A stretch of DNA of 23,133 nt from a virus. Below the pieces are notes generated by a model that saw only the letters and a program-made list of their open reading frames with translations, was not told the origin of the DNA and did not search any database. The position numbers were made by a program, and so were the translations under genes. The stretch spans positions 1-23,133 of IMG/VR virus record IMGVR_UViG_3300030107_004106; one strand, written 5' to 3'. Shown here piece after piece: positions 280-21,676 of this stretch (its first letter is position 1; every line of letters starts with the position of its first letter).

Positions 280-1119
280 TTACAGTTTCTTAAAATAAAA
301 CTTAACTTCGTTATGTGTGCAATTTACATTTTGGAAAGCATATTGCATACCCCAAAAAGATATTACTTCATTATTTAAATATCTCTTGTTTAATTCTTCT
401 TCTGTGTAAGAATGTACTTCTCCAGAAACCATAGTTTCGTCATATTGGACACAATTACATGGAATACTGAAAAGTATACTTTGTTTAAAAGAAGCCATAT
501 GCTTTTTAGCAGATTGGTCTGTACCACAAGAATAGACAGTGTTTGCCTCCCAGCTCCTCAAGCTATCAAATTCCCTCTTTGTTGAAAACTTTAACAGCTC
601 TTTAGGTCTATATATATGACCGTCTAATGAAATAGGATAGCCATAATTACAACGACGTTCGTAATCAGAGTAATTCCATTTTATTCCTATTTCGTTTTCT
701 CGATACTTACTCAGTTTAATTTTCCAACTCTCAAGATAGTTTTGCAATTTAGTGTTCAAGCCTAATCTCAAAGAAAAACAAAGGACTTCGTCGTCTATGA
801 GTTCTTCTACTATATTGCTTGACACTGAAACTCTTTTGTAAACTACGCAGTCATCAACCATTCCACATATGTAATCTGATTTGCAGGACTCAATACATTG
901 CAAAAAATCTTGTAGAAAGTCTTCTTCTTTTTGCCAGACTATGTTGGGTAGAATTTTTTCGTTTATTAATTTTTCATAGCCTTCTTTGAAATTATCGTCT
1001 GTGTAGGTATAGAGTATTTTAATTTCATTAAAGAATGAAGGCATGTTCTCAGCCACGCTTTCTAAAAGAAATCTAAGCTGCATGGCTCTATTTTTAGAAG
1101 GTATAAAAAGATCAATCAT
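280..1119 (-). CDS. Glycosyltransferase-like protein (GT-A fold, GT2-like)
   Basis: The 279-residue product begins MIDLFIPSKNRAMQLRFLLE, the usual opening strand and helix of GT2-type enzymes, which bind a nucleotide sugar. Residues 82-92 read DYICGMVDDCV, where the Asp pair at 89-90 sits in the place of the metal-binding DXD motif. No membrane segment is seen, so the enzyme is probably cytoplasmic. The ATG overlaps the stop of the PAP2 gene as ATGA, so the two are translationally coupled. Two further glycosyltransferase genes lie upstream in the same run. The fold call rests on the N-terminus and the DD motif. The acceptor and the sugar are unknown, and the C-terminal half has no motif I recognise. 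Confidence 0.72.
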   Translation of the reverse strand: MIDLFIPSKNRAMQLRFLLESVAENMPSFFNEIKILYTYTDDNFKEGYEKLINEKILPNIVWQKEEDFLQDFLQCIESCKSDYICGMVDDCVVYKRVSVSSNIVEELIDDEVLCFSLRLGLNTKLQNYLESWKIKLSKYRENEIGIKWNYSDYERRCNYGYPISLDGHIYRPKELLKFSTKREFDSLRSWEANTVYSCGTDQSAKKHMASFKQSILFSIPCNCVQYDETMVSGEVHSYTEEELNKRYLNNEVISFWGMQYAFQNVNCTHNEVKFYFKKL

Positions 1120-1799
1120 TGTTGTTCATACTTTGTTCCCTTTAGGTTCTCCTTAATGTTTTGCCACAATAATCTAGTCATAATCATCGAAGCGTCATTG
1201 TCAGACTGATAATGTACCCCTTGAAGAACTCTACCTCTTCCAACCATAGCGCCAATTTCATAGAGCTTAGTTTTGTGTTCAGGGTAAATACTAGATAACA
1301 CTTCGGCTATAACTGAGCCTTCTGCTTGATGACCGCTAGGATAAGCTGGGGTTTGATGGGTACTGGTTTGTATTACAGATATTGTAAAACCAAGATGAGG
1401 AGCTATCTGAAAAGGTCTAGCTCTTCTATAGTGATACTTTAGTTTCAACCATATTGGATAAACATTTTCCAAGACTAGATCAATTAATTCTTTAGGATAG
1501 GTTAATCCATTCCTCTTCAGGTAAGGCATAAACAGGTCAGAAGGTTCTTTATCAACAGTCATGACCAAATCAAAGTCTTCTTTTGACAAGTTTCTGGTGA
1601 CTCTCTCAAGTTCCTGTAGGTCTAGCTTTGTAGAGTCGCTAGTGTTTTCAGGAGGAGCAGGAATTAAGTCAATCCAATCAACAGTTACAAGAGGAGTGTC
1701 TTTTTGCATCTCCTTTTTGTCTTTTTCTCTTGGTTGACCCTCGTATTTAATCTGATTTATTTCTTCAGAACCACCGGTCGCATTAAGTATGTGAATCAT
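1116..1799 (-). CDS. PAP2-superfamily phosphatase, soluble
   Basis: This 227-residue protein has the three-part PAP2 phosphatase signature in order: K121-x6-R128-P129, then PSGH at 154-157, then R190-x5-H196-x3-D200. H196 would be the nucleophile and H157 the general acid. The Ser that normally precedes the third-motif Arg is Gly here. No signal peptide or membrane helices are visible. That separates it from integral-membrane lipid phosphatases and suggests a cytosolic enzyme nearer to the soluble acid phosphatase or haloperoxidase branch. I chose the ATG at 1799, because the frame extends upstream only to a TTG. The start lies inside the end of the GT4 gene and the stop overlaps the next gene as ATGA. 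Its place between glycosyltransferases suggests it dephosphorylates a sugar or lipid-linked intermediate, which is inference. Confidence 0.85.
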   Translation of the reverse strand: MIHILNATGGSEEINQIKYEGQPREKDKKEMQKDTPLVTVDWIDLIPAPPENTSDSTKLDLQELERVTRNLSKEDFDLVMTVDKEPSDLFMPYLKRNGLTYPKELIDLVLENVYPIWLKLKYHYRRARPFQIAPHLGFTISVIQTSTHQTPAYPSGHQAEGSVIAEVLSSIYPEHKTKLYEIGAMVGRGRVLQGVHYQSDNDASMIMTRLLWQNIKENLKGTKYEQQ

Positions 1800-2907
1800 C
1801 TTTTTCAATAGCCTCTATAATTTTTTGAGCTGAGTTTTCCCAGCTAAATTTTTTGGCGGTGTCTATACCAGCTTGGTTTATGTTTAACTCATCCTTTTTC
1901 TTTTTCTCATGAACACTTCTCATATGTTCAGCCAAAGAAGTGATTTGCTCATCTTTAATAGAAGCCCATTGTCCTTGACCTCTAAACCAAAAATTGTCTT
2001 TGGCATCTTCTTTTTCATTAGTGTCTACAAGAAGACAGTTTTCTTCATTGCAAAACTCTGTATGCGCTGAATAGTTTGTAGCAATTACTTGCTTGCCACA
2101 ACTCATCATTTCAAGAAGTTCCAAATTCCAACCTTCAGCCCTAGCAGGAAACACACCGCAATCAGTCTGTGTCATAATATTATACACATCTTGCTGCGTT
2201 TTCTGTCTTGGTATGATACGTATCTTTTCTCCTAATTTAGAACTTCTATAAAGACGTTCCCATCTAAAATTTTCTTCTTCAGGATAGAAAGGGTTATCTG
2301 CCATCATCCAAAGTTCAACATCATCATCTTCATTAAAAGCTTCATTAAATGCTTTTACTAATATGTCATGACCTTTTCTTACTTCCCATTTTCCGCAATT
2401 AAAGAATATAGTTTCTTTTCTGTGAGAAACCGCTTCTCTAAAAATTGACCTGTCTACTCCTAATGGAACCACATGAGTATGCTCTTTGACGTAATCTTCT
2501 CCTCTTATATTTGATAAGCTTTCTACAATTATACCCTTTGCCCACTCAGAAGCGACCATCCAGTTGTCCAAATAATGAAGATGGTGTAATTCTAAATCGG
2601 TAAAACGGTCTAACTCAAAAATGGGAAAGCCATATTTTGTTCCATTCCCCACAAATTGTGACATATCATGCTGATGCCACATTTTGATTGAAGGAGCCTG
2701 CCAGTTTGGAGTTCTGGCTGCTCCAATAGACATCTTTAGCATTTGAGTATATTCTTCTGGAGCTTCTATTGGACCGATTGGAAATAGAGCTACATCATGT
2801 TTTAGTTCAATTAATGCCTTAGATATATTAAGTCCAGAAACCCCATATCCAAGCTGGTTAATAGGACAGGCTAAATTGATTGAGTGTGTTGTATCTAAAA
2901 AAGACAT
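1783..2907 (-). CDS. Family 4 (GT-B fold) glycosyltransferase
   Basis: The 374-residue product has a two-domain GT-B layout. The N-terminal domain has a glycine-rich loop, NQLGYGVSGLN, near residues 18-27. The C-terminal domain begins around FFNCGKWEVRKGHDILVKAF (168-187), the usual strand and helix that open the donor-binding half. The diagnostic E-x7-E motif is E258-E266 in AEGWNLELLEMMSCGKQVIA, followed by the Gly/Ala-rich turn typical of GT4 retaining enzymes. No membrane segment is seen. The ATG directly abuts the stop of the small membrane protein upstream (TAAATG), so translation is probably coupled. The sugar donor cannot be read from the sequence. Confidence 0.9.
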   Translation of the reverse strand: MSFLDTTHSINLACPINQLGYGVSGLNISKALIELKHDVALFPIGPIEAPEEYTQMLKMSIGAARTPNWQAPSIKMWHQHDMSQFVGNGTKYGFPIFELDRFTDLELHHLHYLDNWMVASEWAKGIIVESLSNIRGEDYVKEHTHVVPLGVDRSIFREAVSHRKETIFFNCGKWEVRKGHDILVKAFNEAFNEDDDVELWMMADNPFYPEEENFRWERLYRSSKLGEKIRIIPRQKTQQDVYNIMTQTDCGVFPARAEGWNLELLEMMSCGKQVIATNYSAHTEFCNEENCLLVDTNEKEDAKDNFWFRGQGQWASIKDEQITSLAEHMRSVHEKKKKDELNINQAGIDTAKKFSWENSAQKIIEAIEKDDSHT

Positions 2908-3027
2908 TTATTTTTTCTTCCTTCTTTTTAATACTTTTTTTTCTTCGTGTCTTAGAGTCATGAACATGATAGCTGCGACACCTAATTCTATTGCCCAAGC
3001 TAGTAATCCAGCCATTAATCCAGTCAT
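2908..3027 (-). CDS. Small single-pass membrane protein, 39 aa
   Basis: The product reads MTGLMAGLLAWAIELGVAAI and then a short basic tail rich in Lys and Arg, which predicts one membrane helix with the tail in the cytoplasm. The ATG overlaps the stop of the upstream glycosyltransferase gene as ATGA, and the stop abuts the next start as TAAATG. Both junctions are the kind seen between real genes throughout the window, which is the main support. It may act as a membrane partner for the adjacent glycosyltransferases, but that is only position-based inference. Confidence 0.6.
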   Translation of the reverse strand: MTGLMAGLLAWAIELGVAAIMFMTLRHEEKKVLKRRKKK

Positions 3028-3989
3028 ACTTTGTCTCTTAGTAAAGTTTTTAGTTGTTCGATCTGGTTTTTCCAATAACTCAATTTTATTTTACTCATAT
3101 CAAACTGTGACATGCTTAATCTTTTTAGTTGGTTTTTCAGAAACTCTGGATTTATTTCTCTCCATTCGTTGACTTTTACATGAGGCATATCATTCATGTA
3201 AGAATACGCACTATGATTTCTTACTATAGGAACACATCCCGAGTAAAGACATTCAAGCATCCTATAACAATCTAAACCATTCCCTTCAGGACAAAGCGCA
3301 AATGAATGTTGTGACAAATCTTTTATATATTCTTTGTACGGTTTAGGGTCATTGACTATTGTAACCCAATCTGGATCGAGTTGCATATAGGCATTTTTCA
3401 TCTTAAACCTATCTATTGTGTTGTCTTGCCAATTCAAATACATCCAATTCACTCGGTCAGAGCGATTAACTAGAAGCGGGTTTGTTAGGCTGTAACAAGG
3501 CTCATCTTCTCGTTTATGAACCCCTAAAGGTATGTTTACTATTCTATCATCTTTTACCTGAGCATTAGAAGTAAACCATTTAACTATATTGTTTGGTATT
3601 TCAGGGAATGTAGAATAAGTATAGGCATAGCATTTTACAGAATACTTATCTTCTATGTTGCATTTATCTAGCTCACATCTTGGTGGTATTTGTAGAGCTT
3701 TATAACCAAGATTTGCAATGTCTGATTCCAAGAATGGAATGAACTTTAGCATGTCTATAGAAACGGGATGTTCCTCTTGCAAGGACACCCCGAAATCACT
3801 GAAAGCACTTATTACTATGTATTTATTGTCGGTAAGTTTGCACTTTTCAAAGAACTTGTGAATGTGTTCTATATTACAGTACACAACTCCAGATTCAGGT
3901 ATTGATCCGTCATCTGAATTTGAATCATAGCTTGTTTCCGCTAGATCCATCCAAGACTTTGTATATATTATATCCGTTTTGTCTATCAT
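3024..3989 (-). CDS. Exostosin-like (GT47-type) glycosyltransferase
   Basis: The best signature is near residues 229-256: SFALCPEGNGLDCYRMLECL followed by YSGCVPIV. This matches the nucleotide-sugar-binding region of exostosin-like GT-B enzymes, where a CPxGxG-D-x-R-x-x-E pattern is usual. The 321-residue protein has no signal peptide or membrane segment and contains several Cys residues. The start is an ATG preceded by AAAAAAGGCAA, and it overlaps the end of the small membrane protein gene upstream by 65 bases. The downstream 39-residue membrane protein starts on its stop codon. With the GT4, GT-A-like and PAP2 genes it forms a four-enzyme cassette. The substrate is unknown. Confidence 0.75.
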   Translation of the reverse strand: MIDKTDIIYTKSWMDLAETSYDSNSDDGSIPESGVVYCNIEHIHKFFEKCKLTDNKYIVISAFSDFGVSLQEEHPVSIDMLKFIPFLESDIANLGYKALQIPPRCELDKCNIEDKYSVKCYAYTYSTFPEIPNNIVKWFTSNAQVKDDRIVNIPLGVHKREDEPCYSLTNPLLVNRSDRVNWMYLNWQDNTIDRFKMKNAYMQLDPDWVTIVNDPKPYKEYIKDLSQHSFALCPEGNGLDCYRMLECLYSGCVPIVRNHSAYSYMNDMPHVKVNEWREINPEFLKNQLKRLSMSQFDMSKIKLSYWKNQIEQLKTLLRDKV

Positions 3990-4133: not shown

Positions 4134-4289
4134 TCACTTAACACTCAAATATATGTCTATCAAAAGACCCAAAGAGGCTCCCGCAAATAATATAGGAGCT
4201 ACAAACAAGGCTAATAAAAAAATATAACTTCTTAAAAGTAAGCAATCCTCTTTAGTTATCCCTTTTAGATTTCTCATTAGGGATTTCAT
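4134..4289 (-). CDS. Small membrane protein, 51 aa
   Basis: Residues about 20-46 are strongly hydrophobic (SYIFLLALFVAPILFAGASL), predicting one long or two short membrane segments. I use the ATG at 4289, which has AAAGG about 9 bases upstream. A second in-frame ATG at 4277 is possible and the frame is open further upstream. The N-terminal part overlaps the end of the preceding gene. The gene belongs to a run of five small envelope-associated genes. Confidence 0.55.
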   Translation of the reverse strand: MKSLMRNLKGITKEDCLLLRSYIFLLALFVAPILFAGASLGLLIDIYLSVK

Positions 4290-4587
4290 TAGAAGAACCT
4301 TTCTGAACTCCTGCATTGCGGAAGTTCTTAGCAAATTCTTGGAAGCCCTTTATAACCTCTTCTCTTGCTATCGGTCTTGATATTCTTCTAATTGATGAGT
4401 GCATCTCCTCTTCTATCATGCTCAAAAACATTTCAAGTTTCATAGCAGTATCATTAATAAACATATTACTATGAATCGCATTAGATTCGAGCTGGCTTAT
4501 TCTTTTTTCCAATCTGTAATTGTTCAATCCTAAACATCCTATCGTAATTGCCATTATTACTAGGCAGAGTATGTTTAGTTTCTTCAT
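4252..4587 (-). CDS. Membrane-anchored coiled-coil protein, 111 aa
   Basis: The product starts MKKLNILCLVIMAITIGCLG, which is a signal anchor or possibly a lipoprotein signal with Cys at residue 18. A short coiled-coil stretch follows (RLEKRISQLESN), then a helical acidic/basic region and a hydrophilic tail. TTAGG about 7 bases upstream of the ATG serves as ribosome binding site, inside the end of the preceding gene. The layout resembles small phage inner-membrane proteins such as spanin-like or Rz-like proteins, but no lysis gene is visible nearby, so I do not assign that role. Confidence 0.7.
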   Translation of the reverse strand: MKKLNILCLVIMAITIGCLGLNNYRLEKRISQLESNAIHSNMFINDTAMKLEMFLSMIEEEMHSSIRRISRPIAREEVIKGFQEFAKNFRNAGVQKGSSNEIPNEKSKRDN

Positions 4588-4589
4588 TG

Positions 4590-4991
4590 TTAAAACCTAA
4601 ATTGAAAGTAAAACCCGCCAAATGGCATTGGGTATACGGGAACAGGCTGCGGTTGGATTATAATAGGAGGACAACACATACCGCATCCACACCAATGGGG
4701 GTGAAAGTTATGGTTGTTCCTAACCCAACTGTAATTCCTGTAGTAAGGATAATACATTGGTTGTCCAATTATGATTCTTCCTTGAGTATGGTTTTTTTGA
4801 ACAGGAGGCTGAGCCTGTCTAGGCTGTTGCCATTGTTGTTTTCCAAAACCCTGTGGTCTTTGAATAGGAACTCCAAATCCTTTTGGTAATTCTTTAGCTT
4901 GAGGTTTAGGAACCGTTATTACTCTTTTTTCTTGAGCTTTCAGTGTTCCAGTAACCATCAAAATCGCCAATATTATCAATACCTTTTTCAT
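4590..4991 (-). CDS. Secreted Pro/Gln/Tyr-rich protein with a Cys cluster
   Basis: The 133-residue product has a clear Sec signal peptide, MKKVLIILAILMVTGTLKAQ, with cleavage likely after LKA. The mature part is low in complexity: a Lys/Pro stretch, a Gln/Pro-rich stretch near residues 45-70, a Tyr-rich stretch (QPMYYPYYRNYSW), the Cys cluster HWCGCGMCCPP and a Pro/Phe-rich end. GAGG upstream of the ATG supports the start. The five clustered Cys residues could form disulfides or bind metal. The composition resembles secreted structural or adhesive proteins, and a second Tyr-rich secreted protein is encoded at 17993-18397. No family is recognised. Confidence 0.75.
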   Translation of the reverse strand: MKKVLIILAILMVTGTLKAQEKRVITVPKPQAKELPKGFGVPIQRPQGFGKQQWQQPRQAQPPVQKNHTQGRIIIGQPMYYPYYRNYSWVRNNHNFHPHWCGCGMCCPPIIIQPQPVPVYPMPFGGFYFQFRF

Positions 4992-5128: not shown

Positions 5129-5245
5129 TCACCACCACATATTAAACTTGCTTAAAACGTAAATTAAAAATATGAAGAACGCTGTACCACTAGCGTAATA
5201 CGCATTTTCAAAAACAAACTTTATAGTTGAACAAATTTTTTTCAT
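5129..5245 (-). CDS. Small membrane protein, 38 aa, start site in a hairpin
   Basis: The peptide begins MKKICSTIKFVFENAYYASG and continues with a hydrophobic helix (TAFFIFLIYVL), so it is a single-pass membrane protein. GAGGTGA, 4 bases before the ATG, is a strong ribosome binding site. Both that site and the start codon lie in the 3' arm of a 9-bp inverted repeat. The stop is immediately followed by the next gene's start region. Confidence 0.6.
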   Translation of the reverse strand: MKKICSTIKFVFENAYYASGTAFFIFLIYVLSKFNMWW

Positions 5246-5280
5246 TTGTCACCTCAAATGTTAGGTTCCTAGTGACAAAT
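5244..5280 (-). promoter_or_regulatory. Hairpin covering a ribosome binding site
   Basis: On the minus strand ATTTGTCAC and GTGACAAAT form a perfect 9-bp inverted repeat with a 19-base loop. The 3' arm contains GTGA of the GAGGTGA ribosome binding site and the first two bases of the ATG at 5245. Pairing would therefore hide the start of the 38-residue membrane protein. A smaller TAGG/CCTA pairing lies in the loop. This is a likely translational control element or a polarity signal after the DUF1501 gene. Confidence 0.55.
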
Positions 5281-5295
5281 CCTCCTCAATGCCTA

Positions 5296-6531
5296 TTAAA
5301 GAATAGACTCTGTGCCAACATCCAAGAAATAACGTGGCCTTCCAGCCATGTCTAATCTCTGCGTGTGTTGGTCAATACCAAAGTGTTTAAGTAATGTTGC
5401 TGTTAAATTCTGTGGGTTGTGCGGGTCTGTCTTTGGTTCTTCTGCTTTAGAAGTAGATTCACCAAGAGCATGCCCCATAAAGAAATCTCCACCAGAAATC
5501 ATTAATGGTGATAATTTAGGCCAATGATCTCTACCAGAGTTGGCATTAATTTTATACGTTCGGCCAAACTCTCCGGTAACAACAACCATAATATCTTTAT
5601 TAAGACCTCTATCGTGTATATCTTTGATTAGAGCAGTAAGAGCTTTATCGACTGGAGGAACTCTACCCTTTAATGACTTAGAGATATTAGAGTGCATGTC
5701 CCAGCCACCATATTGGACTGTAACGAATTTAGTGCCTCTTTCGGCAAGTCTTCTGGCTAGAAGTAGCTGTTCTCCAATGCCACTTCCATACTTTTCTAAA
5801 TTCTTTGAGTCTTCTTTTTTAACATCAAAAGCATCTGCAATATTACCAAGAAGCATATTGTAGGATTGATCGCGCAGGCCAGTATTGTCTCGCAATCTAT
5901 CAAGACCCGTAAGCAAATCCTGACGACCGAGAAAATGCTCTCTATCAATTTTAAGCTGTAGGTTTTTAACACCTTCGCCAGTGGCTTCATAAGGTTTGTA
6001 ATCAGTACCTAACCAAGCTCCACCATCGTAAGTAATGTTATTGACTCTTACATAAGCTGGCATACCAGTAATTGGATTATTCGATCCATACGAACTAGCG
6101 ACCATAGAACCGTATGAAGGGTTATAAGCTGGTGATAATGGCGTATTGTCTGTGCTGTTATAACCAGTCATTACCCAATGAGTACCAGTTCTATGACTAG
6201 CATTACCATGAGCAAACGATCTTACAACAGTCATCTTGTCACCAACTGTTGCTAAGTTTTCCCAGTCAGCGCCAATTCTATAGCCAGCATTTGTTTTAAC
6301 CCAGCCATTGACTGCTCTGACATTATCAGGAGCATCTGGTTTTGGGTCGAATGTTTCTACTTGTGTTGCTCCACCGCCAAGCCAAATCCATATAACGGAT
6401 TTATCATTTGGCGATAAACATAAAGGAGCGTCTTCTGCTTTTATATCTGATAGTCCAATAGCGCTTAGTCCAGCACTAATACCACCAACTCTTATAAAAT
6501 CTCTACGGTTGAATTGTAAATCTATCATCAT
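5296..6531 (-). CDS. DUF1501 family protein with Tat signal peptide
   Basis: This is a complete 411-residue DUF1501 protein. It begins with a twin-arginine signal, NRRDFIRVGG (RR at 9-10), a hydrophobic stretch and a likely cleavage site near IKA-ED, so it should be exported folded. Hallmarks follow in order: GGGATQVETFDPKP near 51-64, a HGNASHRTGTHWVMTG block near 108-123, YGGWDMHSN near 274-282, TGEFGRT near 319-325, GRDHWP near 333-338, and a GID/GRP block at the end. DUF1501 belongs to the alkaline phosphatase/sulfatase-like superfamily, its activity is not established, and it is abundant in Planctomycetota. The ATG at 6531, preceded by AAGG, lies inside the end of the upstream phage gene, so this is not a separate insertion. 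A phage copy is unusual. Confidence 0.92.
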   Translation of the reverse strand: MMIDLQFNRRDFIRVGGISAGLSAIGLSDIKAEDAPLCLSPNDKSVIWIWLGGGATQVETFDPKPDAPDNVRAVNGWVKTNAGYRIGADWENLATVGDKMTVVRSFAHGNASHRTGTHWVMTGYNSTDNTPLSPAYNPSYGSMVASSYGSNNPITGMPAYVRVNNITYDGGAWLGTDYKPYEATGEGVKNLQLKIDREHFLGRQDLLTGLDRLRDNTGLRDQSYNMLLGNIADAFDVKKEDSKNLEKYGSGIGEQLLLARRLAERGTKFVTVQYGGWDMHSNISKSLKGRVPPVDKALTALIKDIHDRGLNKDIMVVVTGEFGRTYKINANSGRDHWPKLSPLMISGGDFFMGHALGESTSKAEEPKTDPHNPQNLTATLLKHFGIDQHTQRLDMAGRPRYFLDVGTESIL

Positions 6532-7072
6532 TGTAAACCTTATCGAAGTCAAAGAACCGCCAGCGGTTCATATGTTTTGCATCGTCATCTTCGTCAACGT
6601 GACGTAAATACTCCAATAGTTCACTCCAATTTGAAAATACCATTTCATGGGGAACCACGCCAAACATCCAATTTGGCAAATTTTCCTTCCCCTGTTTGCA
6701 CATTATGACAACAGGCTTCTTCTGAGCTATGGCAACTGAGGCTTCGTGATAAGAGCCACACAGGTGTGTATCGACATCTAAGCTCATCACAATGAAGTGA
6801 GCGATGTCAACCATCCTCAAATCTATAGCACAAATTGGTTTCATTATTTCAGATACTTCATCATACTTACTGCGTTTCTTTAAGCTGTTTATATGATCTC
6901 TTGTATCAATGTCTTCAGTGCCATAATCACTTGGCTTATCACATGGGTCTAATACCCCAACACCAAGTTGTTGAAGTTTAGGAGTAATGTAATTTCTCCA
7001 CTTTACTCCACCATCTTCAACTCTATCCATAGCTCCGCACAAATATGCGGTCATACCTTTTAACCTACTCAT
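6503..7072 (-). CDS. Nucleoside 2-deoxyribosyltransferase-like protein
   Basis: The 189-residue protein begins with MTAYLCGAMD, the opening strand and loop of the nucleoside 2-deoxyribosyltransferase-like fold. Near residues 110-135 it has DTHLCGSYHEASVAIAQKKP, matching the family's conserved region in which a Glu after a Gly-rich turn acts as nucleophile (here E in YHEAS) before a helix and KPVV strand. Such proteins are common in phages and act on nucleosides or nucleotides, for salvage or NAD-like metabolism. AAGGTGAG before the ATG supports the start. The end overlaps the DUF1501 start by 29 bases. The exact substrate is unknown. Confidence 0.72.
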   Translation of the reverse strand: MSRLKGMTAYLCGAMDRVEDGGVKWRNYITPKLQQLGVGVLDPCDKPSDYGTEDIDTRDHINSLKKRSKYDEVSEIMKPICAIDLRMVDIAHFIVMSLDVDTHLCGSYHEASVAIAQKKPVVIMCKQGKENLPNWMFGVVPHEMVFSNWSELLEYLRHVDEDDDAKHMNRWRFFDFDKVYNDDRFTIQP

Positions 7073-7094: not shown

Positions 7095-7487
7095 TTAAGT
7101 ATTACTTCTATCCAATGTCGCTATTAGTAGATCTTCTGCACTACTAAAGTTCTCATTGTAAGCCACTCTTTTTACCGCCTTTTCAGCATCCTTCTTCTTA
7201 AAGCCTGTTGAAACTAAAGCTGCGATAGTATCAGTTATCACCGAATCGGCTGTCAGCTCTTCGACTAACTCCTCTTCAGTAGAGACTACATTCTCTTCAA
7301 GAGTATTTAGACGAGATAGCTCTAGCTGATAAGCAATACGTTTTCTTTCTTCTTCCATTATTGATTCCAAAGGTGACTCTTTTATAAACCTAAGAAACGT
7401 AAACAATTTAGGAAATACAAAAGCAAGTATCGGCAAAAAAACAGTAAACAACAAACCATTAACAACTATCAATGTGCCTTTATCCAT
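7095..7487 (-). CDS. Membrane-anchored protein with a RuvA-C/UBA-like domain
   Basis: The 130-residue protein has one N-terminal membrane helix (about residues 8-30), a charged helical linker rich in Glu (38-80), and a C-terminal three-helix domain (about 84-127). That domain reads DTIAALVSTGFKKKDAEKAV and continues to EDLLIATL. It closely follows the pattern of RuvA domain III and related UBA-like bundles (AL..LGY....A..AV), which bind partner proteins. A RuvA-III-like domain on a membrane anchor, without the DNA-binding domains, is odd. GGAG upstream supports the start, which abuts the stop of the nuclease-like gene as TAAATG. Confidence 0.65.
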   Translation of the reverse strand: MDKGTLIVVNGLLFTVFLPILAFVFPKLFTFLRFIKESPLESIMEEERKRIAYQLELSRLNTLEENVVSTEEELVEELTADSVITDTIAALVSTGFKKKDAEKAVKRVAYNENFSSAEDLLIATLDRSNT

Positions 7488-8818: not shown

Positions 8819-9646
8819 CTATGCAGTCATGAGGGCTGTCAGTGACTCGATACGCTCACGAACATTGTCACGCCATGCCTCATCGTAGTGAGTCACTTCG
8901 ACCTCTACAGGCGGCTTGTCGCTCATCTCAACGGAATCCTTGAGTGGGTCAGTGAACAGAGCCACGACCTCGTACTTGCAACAACGCAACTTCTGGTATC
9001 GTGCATCATGAGGCACGCTTACTACATCCATAGGATTGACTTTGACCACTAAGAACTGATCGCCACCATCTTCACTTCCATAGTCTTTGACGTAATCCAA
9101 AGAACCTACATGAAGTCCCTTGCTACAACCGTTGTTACGATTGTTATCAACACTATCTCGATCAACTTCAACTACATTACCAACTGAGTTGTCAAAGGTT
9201 CCACTCCACTTATCTTTGAAGTCTTTGTTCACAGCCTTGTATGCAAGGAAGTGACCATCATCAGTGATAGGTAAGTGTTCATGTTGCATGAAGTCAAACA
9301 ACTCCACAATAGCATGGTCAGAAGGATTCTCGTTCATGTTGTTCAAGAACTCCAACATTGGTTGGAAGTTAAACCCTTCAGTCTTCATCTTCATGATACG
9401 GTCAGTGAATAGTTCTGGCATCTCAATACCATCCCACTGAAGTGTACCATTTTTAACGTCAATGTATCCTTCACAGAAGTTGTCTATTGCCGTAGCAACA
9501 TCATAGTCAGCTTCAAAGTATTCAACATTACTGTCAATCAAGTGACCTACTAACTTGGTATAGTTCGGATGGTTTTTGTCGAAGGTGTAGGTCTTACCAG
9601 CGACAACACAATTTACAACGCCTTTGTTACTTACAATGTAACTCAT
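8819..9646 (-). CDS. rIIB: rIIB-like protein
   Basis: The 275-residue protein resembles T4 rIIB-like phage proteins, which act with the membrane-associated rIIA protein and affect lysis timing and exclusion of other phages. The recognised parts are the early KGVVNCVVAGKTYTFDKNHP region, the middle block with FLNNMNENPSDHAIVELFDF and then GHFLAYKAVN, and the NGCSKGLHVGSLDYVKDYG stretch with its KVNPMDVVSVP continuation. AGGAG 7 bases before the ATG fixes the start. It lies 24 bases downstream of rIIA and is followed by a strong terminator, the same gene order as in T4. No membrane segment is seen. Confidence 0.85.
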   Translation of the reverse strand: MSYIVSNKGVVNCVVAGKTYTFDKNHPNYTKLVGHLIDSNVEYFEADYDVATAIDNFCEGYIDVKNGTLQWDGIEMPELFTDRIMKMKTEGFNFQPMLEFLNNMNENPSDHAIVELFDFMQHEHLPITDDGHFLAYKAVNKDFKDKWSGTFDNSVGNVVEVDRDSVDNNRNNGCSKGLHVGSLDYVKDYGSEDGGDQFLVVKVNPMDVVSVPHDARYQKLRCCKYEVVALFTDPLKDSVEMSDKPPVEVEVTHYDEAWRDNVRERIESLTALMTA

Positions 9647-9670: not shown

Positions 9671-11833
9671 CTATTTACTGGAAAGGACTAATTTGATGTA
9701 GTCCAGAATGTGTGTTTTACGAATGTCTCGTTCTGCTTCATTGTCGTAGTATGAGTGAAGACTGGTGTAGTTCAGTACAGGGAAAGTCTCAGTGATTTTA
9801 CTCTCTCTGTTATTCCACTCAATAGGGTCTACATCGACATCATCCTGAAGACCACGACCTAAGCCAAGATGCCTCTTGAGCGAACTCATGGCAACCCACA
9901 GCTTTTCGTTTGAACGATACCACTTGTAGTCATCAACATACTCTCGTATCTCTTCAGGTAGATTGTCTACTTCAGACAACCAGTTAGCAACAAGTTCACG
10001 TTCAGAAGTTTCATGTTGTCTCCAAGCAATATGTTCAACATTCCACTCAAGGACTTCAGTAATACGATCATTGTATGCCGACTGCATGTACTCGAAGTAA
10101 CTAGTCCACTGACCATTAGCATTGAACTTCTTCTTCTTTAGCTCTTGGCTCTTGATGCCGTAGATAGGAACTTCCTCATCAATCTCACAGCCAATATCTA
10201 CAAGTAGCTCATTGAACTTTCTGATGTTATTCCAATCACCCATGCGATTGCCATCACGACCAACAATTTCATAGCGATTGATCTCGAAGTATAGACCACC
10301 TTCTTCCATGTCTACTTCAATATCTTTCCATTGACCACGACTGTAATCCCAGACACATACTTTACTTCTGTAACTAGCACCAGAGTTATTGCTCTTACTT
10401 CTAGTAACTGATTCAAGACTTGAAGCAAGAATCAAATGTTCTTCAGCACAGCCCAACCATTTCATGATAGCTTCTTTATCGCCACCACTAATTAGGTAAT
10501 ACTCAAACTTGTTCTTCTCTCGGTCATGCTTGTCGCCAAGTTGTTCCTTAGCATACTTTCGAGTACGAGCAACAGCACCACGTTTCAGGTCATCGAGGAT
10601 TAGCACTATGTTCTTAGTACCATTATCAAATCTAATGAACTCCGTATCGTCACAAGCAATAGCAGTCTTCCAGAAATCTCGGTACATCTTACGCATCTTG
10701 TACTTGGGAACTTCCATATCTCCGCCATTGTAGTCTGGAACAGTCTTCTTTGGTACATATACTCTATCGTAAGCATCATCAAACAAGTCTTTGCCATTCC
10801 ACTTAATGTCATCACTGAATGATCTGATTATCTCATTCAAGTGACCACCTTCTCTGCGAAAGTTCTTGTATTTGATTCGTGCATCCCAATGTGTAGGACA
10901 GTCATCAAAGCTCTCGCCAAGAGTCTCTTTCAACTCTTCAATAATAAACTCGCAAGCCTCAACGATAGCTTTCTTAGTATACTCGTTGTAACTAAGAGAT
11001 TCACGACTTGGTGTAATGTCTACATCGCCAATAGCAAAGTGGATATGCACATTGCTTTTCAATACAGCGGTAACAGTATCATTGTCTGAAAACTGTTCTC
11101 TATCAAGATCATATGCAACCTGACCCATGATAGCTTTAGCTTTAATATCCCATCGTCGCTGGGCATCTTTATTGACTAAGCCCCAAGTGCTACCAGTAAA
11201 GACATAATCGAACTTTTCTATTTCAATATCGCTATTGAAGTTAGGCTTAACCTTGAAGTGTTTGTATACTTCTTTAGCTTCCTGCTCGAACTCCTGTACA
11301 TCATCAGCATCTACACTGAACAATACATGCAATCCATTAGGCTGAGTAGTATCATTTTCTGACATCAAAGCAAACACAGGCTTATTGTGTTCATCTTTGA
11401 AAGAATTATAAATACGCACTTTGCCATTGTGATAAGAAGTAACAATGAAACTATCTGTATAAGCAAATGGCGACTTGCTACCAAGACCAAGACATCCAAC
11501 TGCATCATTAGTATCAGTCTTCGTACTACCAAAGTATGTAGTGTAAAGATTCATGCAGTCTTCGTGAGATAGGCCAGTGCCGAAGTCACGAATCGCAAAT
11601 TGAGGATTGAATCTATCTGGCATGGTGACATTGAATGGAACGTCAGCTTTGCCAGCATCAACATGAGCATCGTAAGCATTTGTAGATAGCTCACGAATCA
11701 CAGCCCTGATCTTGTTTGAGTACAGGCCGTCTGAGAGGATTGAGAAGGCTTTAGCCGATGCCTCAATCGTGTAATTGGATTGCTCAAAGTCATCTGAGCG
11801 TACAACATTGTTTACTTCGTTCTGCAATTTCAT
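9671..11833 (-). CDS. rIIA: rIIA-like protein with GHKL ATPase domain
   Basis: The 720-residue protein has an N-terminal GHKL (Hsp90/gyrase/MutL-type) ATP-binding domain. The N-box is RELSTNAYDAH (E48, N52, D55), the next motif is RDFGTGLS (D83, G85, G87), and the third is GCLGLGSKSPFAYTDSF (113-129). This matches the T4 rIIA family in domain and length. rIIA with rIIB controls lysis inhibition and membrane energetics in T4; its role in other hosts is unclear. I use the ATG at 11833, which TGAGGAA precedes by 7 bases, not the GTG-type extension upstream. The region 11834-11939 before it holds an inverted repeat. Confidence 0.88.
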   Translation of the reverse strand: MKLQNEVNNVVRSDDFEQSNYTIEASAKAFSILSDGLYSNKIRAVIRELSTNAYDAHVDAGKADVPFNVTMPDRFNPQFAIRDFGTGLSHEDCMNLYTTYFGSTKTDTNDAVGCLGLGSKSPFAYTDSFIVTSYHNGKVRIYNSFKDEHNKPVFALMSENDTTQPNGLHVLFSVDADDVQEFEQEAKEVYKHFKVKPNFNSDIEIEKFDYVFTGSTWGLVNKDAQRRWDIKAKAIMGQVAYDLDREQFSDNDTVTAVLKSNVHIHFAIGDVDITPSRESLSYNEYTKKAIVEACEFIIEELKETLGESFDDCPTHWDARIKYKNFRREGGHLNEIIRSFSDDIKWNGKDLFDDAYDRVYVPKKTVPDYNGGDMEVPKYKMRKMYRDFWKTAIACDDTEFIRFDNGTKNIVLILDDLKRGAVARTRKYAKEQLGDKHDREKNKFEYYLISGGDKEAIMKWLGCAEEHLILASSLESVTRSKSNNSGASYRSKVCVWDYSRGQWKDIEVDMEEGGLYFEINRYEIVGRDGNRMGDWNNIRKFNELLVDIGCEIDEEVPIYGIKSQELKKKKFNANGQWTSYFEYMQSAYNDRITEVLEWNVEHIAWRQHETSERELVANWLSEVDNLPEEIREYVDDYKWYRSNEKLWVAMSSLKRHLGLGRGLQDDVDVDPIEWNNRESKITETFPVLNYTSLHSYYDNEAERDIRKTHILDYIKLVLSSK

Positions 11834-11869
11834 AATTCGATTCCTCAATGTGAAAGAGAATGTTTATCA

Positions 11870-12652: not shown

Positions 12653-12661
12653 GGTTTTTAG

Positions 12662-13000
12662 TGGAGGTGGGCGGAATCGAACCGCCGTCCTGTATTGCCT
12701 CTGTAATAGTTTCTACATTGTTAGTTTATTGTAATCACACAACAAACAAAGTTATCCGATTATCGGAGTCAAGTAAATTATTACTATCATGTGCAGGGTG
12801 TTAAAGCGCACAATCTCTATCAGATTTATCTGCGTCATCACTATTTGGTTTACAGGGCTGTGATACCCCTACCGCATTAAGCGGCTAGTGCGAAATTCTC
12901 TTCTACACTTAAAAAGTTTGAACGATTTTTTAAGTAGCCCTTCGTTCAACTACTCAATGCAACTATTATTTTAACAACCAGTCGAACCCTATTCACCCCC
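12662..13000 (-). ncRNA. ssrA: tmRNA (ribosome rescue RNA)
   Basis: The 339-base RNA has both tRNA-like ends of tmRNA. The 5' end is GGGGGTG followed by the hallmark GGGTTCGACTGG, and the 3' end has a T-arm (CGGCGGTTCGATTCCGCC) and CACCTCC, which closes a 7-bp acceptor stem with the 5' end. The third pair is G-U, the alanine identity pair. Internally a tag frame ends with codons for ENFALAA and TAA (12877-12921), the usual degradation signal for ClpXP-type proteases. No CCA is encoded: the end reads ACTA. tmRNA with SmpB frees stalled ribosomes. No SmpB gene is seen here, so the host protein is presumably used. Confidence 0.93.
12877..12921 (-). other. tmRNA tag-peptide reading frame
   Basis: Reading back from the TAA at 12879-12877, the frame encodes SNFLSVEENFALAA. 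The last seven residues are canonical. The first codon is set by aligning AATCGT-TCA-AAC with the bacterial TAGTC-GCA-AAC region, which gives a Ser (TCA) resume codon instead of the usual Ala. The exact resume point is inferred. Confidence 0.7.
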
Positions 13001-17546: not shown

Positions 17547-17996
17547 TTATTTTTTAGAAAAAACTTCTGCTTTTTTTATTAGATTACTGGATGATTGAAC
17601 CTTATCGCCGCCAGCGTTGTAAATCATTCTCACTCCAAGCTCTTCTTCAAGTACATCTTCTGGAACGCCACCTTCTTTTCGATCTCCACCATTTGCGAAT
17701 ATCATATCTTCAAAGAAAGGATCATTCTGAAGTCTTCTGAATTCTTCTCTTATCGTTTGACAAACTGATCCGTCTTTGTCGATAGCAATTACAGATCTGT
17801 CTACACCTTTTATATTTCTGATTATTCTTAGTCTGTCATCTTGGTTCATAAAGGGAACTGAACCTTTTATCTTAACTTGCTCATCGCTATTAACGATTAC
17901 AATCAAAAAGTCTCCAAGATTTCTAGCTGAAGATATATAGTCTATATGACCAATATGCAAAGGATTAAAGAAGCCAGATATTACTACTACTCTCAT
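17547..17996 (-). CDS. HldE/TagD-like cytidylyltransferase-fold protein
   Basis: The 149-residue protein has the nucleotidyltransferase signature: GFFNPLHIGHIDYISSARNL with the HxGH motif at 14-17, then GDFLIVIVNSDEQVKIKG, a DDRLRIIRNIKGVD helix, and a C-terminal GGDK-QSSSNLIKKA that carries the S-x-x-x-I-K region of the family. This is the pattern of the adenylyl- or cytidylyltransferase half of HldE and related sugar-nucleotide enzymes. It activates a sugar phosphate or polyol phosphate with NTP, giving a donor for glycosyltransferases like those at 280-3989. The start overlaps the upstream stop as ATGA. The substrate is unknown. Confidence 0.87.
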   Translation of the reverse strand: MRVVVISGFFNPLHIGHIDYISSARNLGDFLIVIVNSDEQVKIKGSVPFMNQDDRLRIIRNIKGVDRSVIAIDKDGSVCQTIREEFRRLQNDPFFEDMIFANGGDRKEGGVPEDVLEEELGVRMIYNAGGDKVQSSSNLIKKAEVFSKK

Positions 17997-18621: not shown

Positions 18622-18772
18622 CTGGAAAAACCTCATTACAATATTCAACAAATGCGTCTTCAGCTTCTTGTCTTGTGTCGTAATAACCAAGAAGCATATC
18701 TGCTTCATCCCATACGGCAAACATTTCTTTACCGTCTATCCATTGGACATGTATGCTATTATTTTCTTCCAT
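18614..18772 (-). CDS. Small acidic hypothetical protein, 52 aa
   Basis: The product MEENNSIHVQWIDGKEMFAV continues WDEADMLLGYYDTRQEAEDA and ends FPDE. It is very acidic, with a strand pair and then a helix. It starts inside the end of the zinc protein gene (14-base overlap) and its stop overlaps the next gene's start. The form (strand-strand-helix with an EAE segment) is like the 54-residue gene at 14928-15092. Confidence 0.68.
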   Translation of the reverse strand: MEENNSIHVQWIDGKEMFAVWDEADMLLGYYDTRQEAEDAFVEYCNEVFPDE

Positions 18773-19025
18773 TCCATTTCTTTCTAGCTTCTACCCAATC
18801 ATCAGCGGAACCACTAGCTCCACCACAATCATCGCACTCATACCAATAAAGACCTATTGTCTCCATAGCTTCTGCTTGTGGATGACCACCACAAAACGGA
18901 CATGGCAAAATAGTCTCATCAGTAAATTCAGTTACCTTTATTCTGTGTTCACCACACCTAATACACCATACAGGCATATTATCTGTTTCTACTATTCTGC
19001 CGCAACAGCCAAGTAAGTATTTCAT
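18759..19025 (-). CDS. Zinc-ribbon protein, Lar-like
   Basis: The ATG at 19025 is chosen because it lies just after the stop of the upstream gene. The 88-residue product has CIRCG, then CPFCGGHPQAEAM, then YECDDCGGASGSADDWVEAR and a closing KKWNGR. The CPFCGG...CxxCG...A...W(N)R layout is that of Lar-type restriction alleviation proteins, small phage or prophage zinc proteins that weaken host type I restriction. An extra Cys pair at the N-terminus (GCCG) suggests a second metal site. The likeness is by motif, so an unrelated zinc-ribbon is possible. Confidence 0.72.
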   Translation of the reverse strand: MKYLLGCCGRIVETDNMPVWCIRCGEHRIKVTEFTDETILPCPFCGGHPQAEAMETIGLYWYECDDCGGASGSADDWVEARKKWNGRK

Positions 19026-19027
19026 AT

Positions 19028-19198
19028 TTAAGTAAGAGAGAACCAAATGACAAAAAAACAAATTGTTAATACAAAGATAACAACAGCAATCTTGATTATC
19101 TTTTTGTTTAGGTTCTTTCTCTTAACCTCCAGTTTCTCTTCCATGTAGTCGGAATAACTTTTCCATCTACCCTCTTTAGTTGTATTGTGTCTTTTCAT
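19028..19198 (-). CDS. Small membrane protein, 56 aa
   Basis: The product has a basic N-terminal half (MKRHNTTKEGRWKSYSDYME and then KRKNLNKKI) and a C-terminal membrane helix (IKIAVVIFVLTICFFVIWFSL), a tail-anchored layout with the head in the cytoplasm. The ATG overlaps the stop of the upstream four-helix protein as ATGA. No family is recognised. Confidence 0.7.
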   Translation of the reverse strand: MKRHNTTKEGRWKSYSDYMEEKLEVKRKNLNKKIIKIAVVIFVLTICFFVIWFSLT

Positions 19199-20132: not shown

Positions 20133-20627
20133 CTATTCTCTTCCATAATCATCTTCTAATCTGATGATGTCATCTTCCTGACAATCACCAGTTTGTATTT
20201 CTATAAAAACTAGATCAATCAATCCAGAGTTTCTAACTCTATGAACTTCGTATTTATTTATAGTAATTTTATCTCCACGCTCTATGCTGAATTCTTCATC
20301 AGCAATCTGCATAGTGCCAAATCCATCTATTACATACCAAAGCTCTTTTCTCTTTTTATGTAATTGTAAACTTAATCTTTGACCAGACTTAACTACTATC
20401 TTCTTTATCTTGACCCCTTCCTCATCTAATAAAATATCAAATGAACCCCAATTTCTATTTTCATACTTTTTATCGCCTGAAAAACCAGAGGTTGTAGGGA
20501 ATACCATGTCTTCTTTGTCAATTTCTTCACAAATAGGATTATCTTTACCACAAAAATTGCATGGTGTATTAGAACATTGCTTGTGTGTGGCTAATTGACC
20601 ACAGCATTGAAATCTATATTGAGTCAT
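20133..20627 (-). CDS. Mannose-6-phosphate isomerase type II-like cupin with zinc-binding N-terminus
   Basis: The 164-residue protein has two parts. Residues 1-35 hold a Cys-rich knuckle (CCGQLATHKQCSNTPCNFCG). Residues about 58-164 match the cupin of type II phosphomannose isomerase: WGSFDILLDEEG, LSLQLHKKRKELWYVIDG, GDKITINKYEVHRV, and the very conserved IEIQTGDCQEDDIIRLEDDY. Metal ligands Q, H, E and the later H appear kept, although the second His of the first cupin motif is Lys. The enzyme would interconvert fructose-6-phosphate and mannose-6-phosphate or bind a sugar phosphate. The start overlaps the upstream stop as ATGA. Confidence 0.85.
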   Translation of the reverse strand: MTQYRFQCCGQLATHKQCSNTPCNFCGKDNPICEEIDKEDMVFPTTSGFSGDKKYENRNWGSFDILLDEEGVKIKKIVVKSGQRLSLQLHKKRKELWYVIDGFGTMQIADEEFSIERGDKITINKYEVHRVRNSGLIDLVFIEIQTGDCQEDDIIRLEDDYGRE

Positions 20628-21196: not shown

Positions 21197-21676
21197 TTAT
21201 CCAATCCAGTATGGTACTGGCCTTTTCTTCCATGAGTGTAAGTGAGCTTTTCCAATGTTGTAGTAATTCCTGTATCCGATTACAGGGTCACTCATTTTGA
21301 ATTCATCATCCATAGCTTGTGGAAATGGAGTGAGTTCAAGATATTCAAACACATTGTGTACAGGAGTATTTTTTATGCAGTCTTCTATTATGGCTTCGCA
21401 TTTATGCACCTTGCCATATCTATGTGTATATTCCTTACACAACGCAATGCCCATATCACATAGCCATTTGTAATTGGCAAGGCTTTTCCTCGCCCATACG
21501 CTGCACGGATGGTTTGTATGCGTCTTGCGGTAAGGAATAGACTCAGGAGTACAGCCGAGTTCATGCCGTGCGGTACAGAGCATCTGAGCAGTCTCCAAAG
21601 GCATCTTTACAACATGTCTATCGACATGCCATTGAGCCGCAACACCAACATCTTGATCCAAAACAAAAATATTCAA
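21197..21676 (-). CDS. Conserved marine-phage protein (MNIFxLDxD family)
   Basis: This 159-residue protein matches a family I know from T4-like cyanophages and other marine phages: MNIFVLDQDVGVAAQWHVDR, then HVVKMPLETAQMLCTA, YRKTHTNHPCSVWARKS, NYKWLCDMGIALCKEYTHRY, GKVHK, TPFPQAM and YRNYYNIGKAH. Conserved His, Lys and Asp residues suggest an enzyme. I do not know its function. The start is TTG, not ATG: TTG at 21676 gives exactly the family N-terminus, GAGGTCAAAG precedes it, and it overlaps the upstream stop as TTGA. Confidence 0.85.
   Translation of the reverse strand: MNIFVLDQDVGVAAQWHVDRHVVKMPLETAQMLCTARHELGCTPESIPYRKTHTNHPCSVWARKSLANYKWLCDMGIALCKEYTHRYGKVHKCEAIIEDCIKNTPVHNVFEYLELTPFPQAMDDEFKMSDPVIGYRNYYNIGKAHLHSWKKRPVPYWIG

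Follow-up and report, generated by a model that had tools for sequence, protein, structure and literature searches.

A putatively exported DUF1501 protein encoded among phage genes: a captured accessory gene with a possible role at the host envelope

Introduction

What does a DUF1501 protein do in a phage? Few protein families are as expanded in Planctomycetota and Verrucomicrobiota as this one, and to our knowledge no activity, substrate or localisation has been established for any of its members. It has been discussed as a family of PVC bacteria with a link to intracellular membranes (Kamneva et al. 2012, as cited in PMC4452313 and PMC4960237) and as a Tat-exported protein found beside DUF1800 and chitin synthase (PMC5122149), while the PSCyt genes that can accompany it are abundant in Verrucomicrobia and have no assigned function (PMC5615132). 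Here we analyze a DUF1501 gene found in a 23,133-bp virus contig from IMG/VR, the whole of which is referred to below as the window, and ask whether it belongs to the phage, where it came from and what its product might do.

Results and Discussion

The DUF1501 gene (5296..6531, minus strand, like the other window genes described here) encodes a protein of 411 aa with a predicted Tat-type signal and a predicted alkaline phosphatase/sulfatase-like fold. Its reading frame is free of internal stops, and the product matches PF07394 with an E-value of 5.6e-71 and 240 bits (curated cut-off, 27 bits) over profile positions 2-377 of 390. The open reading frame as a whole, 5296-6552 (-), begins with TTG; the start codon is likely the ATG at 6531 (ATGATGATA), with AAGG immediately 5' of it. 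The resulting N-terminus, MMIDLQFNRRDFIRVGGISAGLSAIGLSDIKAED, carries an RRxF motif, then a hydrophobic stretch and an A-x-A-like end, and a twin-arginine signal peptide is predicted for residues 1-33 (6433..6531, minus strand; NRRDFIR motif), which by sequence makes the protein a candidate for Tat export. The RR pair is present in 34 of 34 aligned viral copies, and a simple count in the enlarged set found the twin-arginine motif in 133 of 145, the 12 others being mostly over-extended ORF starts. The complete copy with a twin-arginine signal that the first-pass annotation had described is thus borne out by the near-full-length PF07394 match and by the NRRDFIR motif with its hydrophobic stretch, as is the overlap of 29 bases with a phage gene, which spans exactly 6503..6531 on the minus strand.

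This arrangement recurs in related viral contigs, and the overlap likely reflects translational coupling with the upstream gene, which encodes a nucleoside 2-deoxyribosyltransferase-like (NDRT) protein (6503..7072, minus strand; PF15891 4.6e-05 and PF05014 8.4e-05, both sub-threshold). Further upstream, all on the minus strand, are a conserved neighbour (cluster c7) encoding a small RuvA_C-like domain protein (7095..7487; PF07499 2e-05) and homologues of rIIB (8819..9646; phrog_609 1.2e-67) and rIIA (9671..11848; phrog_612 2.9e-132), the latter with at most 40.5% identity to isolate phages among the matches listed; an SSB gene, three tRNAs and one tmRNA are more distant. On the downstream side, also on the minus strand, DUF1501 is directly followed by an inverted repeat, TTTGTCAC/GTGACAAA (5245..5279), a small ORF of 38 aa with a hydrophobic stretch (5129..5245), two small proteins that recur in relatives, one with an apparent Sec-type signal (c36, 4590..4991) and one membrane-anchored at its N-terminus (c19, 4252..4587), an Exostosin/RXYLT1-like (GT47-like) glycosyltransferase (c3, 3024..3989; PF24785 3.3e-07), a GT4 glycosyltransferase (1783..2907; PF13692 6.8e-17, phrog_2170 3.6e-27) and a PAP2-superfamily phosphatase (1116..1808; PF01569 2e-11). 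PAP2-superfamily genes lie close to DUF1501 in other viral lineages as well. Elsewhere in the window, again on the minus strand, sugar metabolism is represented by a cytidylyltransferase of the heptose/nucleotide type (17547-17996) and a mannose-6-phosphate-isomerase-type cupin (20133-20627); a match to the Lar restriction-alleviation family (18759-19061; PF14354, 38.9 bits) and a phrog_624 protein (21197-21676; 8.8e-63) that resembles pyrimidine dimer DNA glycosylase below the threshold were also seen.

With the window protein as query, 36 viral loci were obtained, and a scan of IMG/VR with an alignment profile gave 468 viral stretches encoding DUF1501, from which 79 loci were kept. In lineage A, to which the window belongs, the order rIIA-rIIB-RuvA_C-like-NDRT-DUF1501-(small exported proteins)-GT47-GT4(-PAP2) was seen again in independent contigs, and its retention in many of them upholds the proposal that the gene belongs to the phage. 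Besides this rIIAB-NDRT-DUF1501 context (type A), three others were found: primase-dNMP kinase-RecB-like nuclease-DUF1501, often with two or three DUF1501 genes in tandem and followed by DNA polymerase III (type B); PSCyt2-PSD1 (DUF1549/DUF1553) adjoining DUF1501, seen in nine contigs (L124-L132), the longest of 205 kb (type C); and NrdA-NrdB-DUF1501-c1-DUF1501 (type D). In the PSCyt2-PSD1 genes of lineage C, CxxCH is intact wherever it was checked, and PSCyt2 was not found in contigs of the window's own lineage. Some phages carry two to four different DUF1501 subfamilies, and in several contigs the DUF1501 genes number three or four.

Other genes were noted in these contigs. A matrixin (M10) metallopeptidase whose N-terminus is of the RR type lies directly 3' of DUF1501 in one relative (L012:9319-9933) and has homologues in several related phages, a secreted trypsin-like protease stands beside DUF1501 in another (L021:2368-3351), and a related 125-kb phage carries nucleotide-sugar and polysaccharide genes. 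DNA polymerase III alpha is split into two genes in a related phage of 125 kb, G010 (L096:10826-12439 and L096:13272-15197), and similarly in L031, and in some of the lineage C contigs a gene close by encodes a VWA-like DGSGS motif.

The viral DUF1501 genes are under strong purifying selection, with dN/dS values mostly between 0.04 and 0.08 and two exceptions, 0.11 and 0.28, both at short distances. No DUF1501 gene was found anywhere in the 136-kb contig of a sister phage, L120, whose NDRT is 90% identical: its empty site lies after NDRT and ahead of the small ORF and small exported-protein genes, with the right border falling near the inverted repeat described above. The lack of the gene at the matching site of this phage makes DUF1501 accessory cargo; together with its surroundings of phage genes and its cellular homologues, it shows the traits of a phage auxiliary or moron gene. 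Among the INPHARED isolate phages neither the window protein nor a lineage C copy had a match, a single weak fragment match of 111 aa was obtained for another DUF1501 subfamily, and a search of the same set for PSCyt2-PSD1 also gave none. The DUF1501 reported for Pseudomonas phage ZC03 proved to be a weak CDD match of a 61-aa protein and no true copy.

The closest cellular relatives of the window protein are from Planctomycetota, followed by Verrucomicrobiota. Genomes of this host type have 68-198 DUF1501 matches each, of which only one or two belong to the window's subfamily; this subfamily is not universal, since a search across Planctomycetota at E<=1e-80 matched only 1 of 199 genomes. The first tree joined the principal viral copies from lineages A and B in one clade (SH-aLRT 99) next to this cellular subfamily. 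A single viral origin for all copies was rejected (AU p 0.0002), so several captures must have taken place. On the enlarged set, five changes of the viral label are required, four or more of them forced by starred branches, and the second and third copies found in viruses are placed next to differing cellular subfamilies; since the trees were built quickly and contain some long branches, they give the number of captures only approximately. The phylogeny proposed as a check has thus placed the viral copies in well-supported clades of their own, beside Planctomycetota and Verrucomicrobiota subfamilies, and judging from these trees the window gene was taken long ago from bacteria of this type.

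The family distribution and the nesting of the captured copies make a PVC-type host likely, and on these grounds the host is probably a member of Planctomycetota or Verrucomicrobiota; among 14 control genomes DUF1501 was found in two and PSCyt2 scored above the cut-off in none. The idea that the gene points to the host therefore stands for these two phyla taken together but not for one single phylum. A complete tmRNA in the window (12659-13000, minus strand; 118 bits with Rfam, missed by ARAGORN) is equally distant from those of Planctomycetota and Verrucomicrobiota. Its likely tag, VEENFALAA, is shared by the tmRNAs of two further DUF1501 phages (G252, G255), and lineage A and lineage B/D viral tmRNAs match each other best. 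The tmRNA of L214 (G245, a 204,906-bp contig) has an unusually long tag, AKNIVSFEDFVHSEELALAA, resembling the long Verrucomicrobiota tag AKNTMSFEGNAVALAA (L261). This lineage C tag and tmRNA are closest to a Verrucomicrobiota tmRNA among those compared, a weak hint as to the host.

No significant relatives were found in the PDB by sequence alone. The AlphaFold2 model of the window protein (pLDDT 81, pTM 0.82, core above 90) gave 225 PDB matches at E<=0.001 with Foldseek, led by sulfatases (E around 3e-7, with TM-scores of only about 0.3-0.45) and including the envelope proteins LtaP and YejM and alkaline phosphatase. At the level of this predicted model, the alkaline phosphatase/sulfatase-like fold named in the first-pass annotation was confirmed. 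However, neither the canonical nucleophile, be it Cys/fGly, Ser or Thr, nor the DD/DH metal ligands are kept anywhere in the family: when the profile was aligned with planctomycete sulfatases (E 7.5e-6, probability 84), the catalytic Cys corresponds to an invariant His113, the 'SDHG' motif to G-E321-F322-G and the first 'DD' to GG. This replacement of canonical residues rules out a typical sulfatase. As to the metal-site residues that were to be checked in the model, the canonical sulfatase ligands are replaced, while an invariant set proper to DUF1501 is kept. H113, D278, H280, D295, R324 and R334-D335-H336 are invariant in the 58 cellular and about 180 viral sequences with letters at these positions, the viral rows including near-duplicates (28 representatives at 75% identity); position 321 is E or D, with D in four viral rows. 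The window protein has the full family set (GG, H113, D278xH280, E321-F-G-R324 and GRDH). The strict retention of these residues over several captures suggests that they may form an active site, and we infer that they could make a putative metal site.

Taken together, these data led us to favor a reading of the gene as a captured accessory gene for an exported enzyme that would modify the host envelope, with receptor alteration or superinfection exclusion as plausible outcomes; we give it a probability of about 0.4. DUF1501 would be expressed together with the takeover genes neighbouring rIIAB and, already folded, would pass through the host's Tat machinery to the periplasm or the cell surface, where it might hydrolyse or transfer a phospho- or sulfo-type substituent carried by a glycan or glycolipid of the envelope, jointly with the glycosyltransferases and the PAP2 phosphatase of the operon. 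The most likely benefit would be an altered surface of the infected cell, which would either remove the receptors that the same phage or its competitors use or spare released virions re-adsorption onto debris. The role at the envelope is suggested by the presence of LtaP and YejM among the fold matches, by the glycosyltransferases and PAP2 in the operon along with the polysaccharide genes of the related 125-kb phage, and by the exported proteases adjoining DUF1501 in relatives, while the empty L120 site argues for a moron-type trait. Phospho/sulfo chemistry is not assured, because the canonical sulfatase and alkaline phosphatase residues are replaced. Against this reading, in other lineages DUF1501 lies among replication or ribonucleotide reductase genes and not among surface genes, and the operon PAP2 has no obvious export signal.

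The phage copy could instead replace an envelope protein that is continually needed once host expression has been shut down. The wealth of DUF1501 genes in host-type genomes, the host-type PSCyt2-PSD1 and DUF1501 pair in one phage lineage and the correspondence of the two to four subfamilies of some phages to differing host subfamilies would fit such maintenance, but a close sister phage does without the gene and several tandem subfamilies seem beyond maintenance needs, which leaves this explanation improbable though worth keeping in mind. Scavenging of nutrients by an exported hydrolase, an auxiliary metabolic gene that would release phosphate, sulfate or sugars from polymers, would agree with the predicted fold and with the location of Verrucomicrobia PSCyt genes near sulfatase and carbohydrate-binding genes (PMC5615132); with the canonical catalytic residues missing and no transporter or nutrient genes visible in the operon, we regard it as unlikely. 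An aid to lysis or egress, weakening the envelope or a surface layer late in infection together with the small membrane or secreted proteins and exported proteases, could be argued from the adjoining rIIA/rIIB and small-protein genes and from the Tat-type matrixin next to DUF1501 in several relatives; it appears quite unlikely, given the replication and nucleotide gene clusters that surround DUF1501 in other lineages and the fact that no endolysin or holin was identified adjoining it. That the protein is a virion-associated depolymerase or receptor-binding component is very improbable: in L010 the gene follows one for a 316-aa protein that looks structural by eye, but the usual neighbours are non-structural and the Tat motif is kept in all lineages. 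A contig misjoin or bacterial contamination, in favor of which nothing was found, is scarcely credible when the same gene order is found in many independent contigs, the viral copies form their own clade and the GC content of lineage A copies, about 0.40, is near that of their own contigs and well apart from the 0.54-0.69 of cellular relatives.

Envelope modification by a captured enzyme, the reading we prefer, can be extended to a broader and rather doubtful conjecture, namely that phages of Planctomycetota and Verrucomicrobiota carry kits of several DUF1501 subfamilies, sometimes with PSCyt2-PSD1, which were repeatedly captured for remodelling of the host surface, and that the 60-200-fold expansion in these bacteria would in part be the outcome of an arms race with phages.

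Among uncultured phages there is thus a large group in which DUF1501 is common, often as several different copies, and this opens a long-standing mystery family to tests on viral genes. That phages have captured the gene repeatedly, carry it widely and conserve it strictly is independent evidence for an active exported protein, and the phage copies offer compact material for biochemistry, besides supplying host markers for many uncultured phages. These data also suggest that the expansion of the family in bacteria may be tied to phage pressure.

Comparison with known systems

The nearest counterparts are the cellular DUF1501 orthologs of the same subfamily (L038-L061, L043/L046/L049), with 42-49% identity over the full length, a Tat-type motif and the same invariant residues; the viral copies differ from them in forming a separate clade (SH-aLRT 99-100), in being AT-richer and in their location in phage gene clusters. 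Formylglycine sulfatases and the alkaline phosphatase superfamily resemble DUF1501 in the predicted fold and in the profile alignment given above, but DUF1501 has His113 in place of the nucleophile Cys, E-F-G instead of 'DHG' and GG instead of the first 'DD'. The PSCyt2-PSD1 (DUF1549-DUF1553) and DUF1501 pair of PVC bacteria is intact in phage lineage C, while it was not found in contigs of the window's own lineage.

The statement that no phage role has been described for the family agrees with the largely open-access literature searched, in which no paper on phage DUF1501 was found, but a phage protein in UniProt, A0A6J5M742, is already named 'DUF1501 domain-containing protein [uncultured Caudovirales phage]'. 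It is viral and DUF1501 by name and predicted fold, but it belongs to another subfamily, with 12% identity over the structural alignment, and the entry is an annotation only.

We know of no moron that uses DUF1501. The gene resembles phage morons with exported products that modify the surface or exclude superinfection in being host-derived, accessory, predicted to be exported and under purifying selection, and it differs from them in that DUF1501 phages hold up to four divergent copies.
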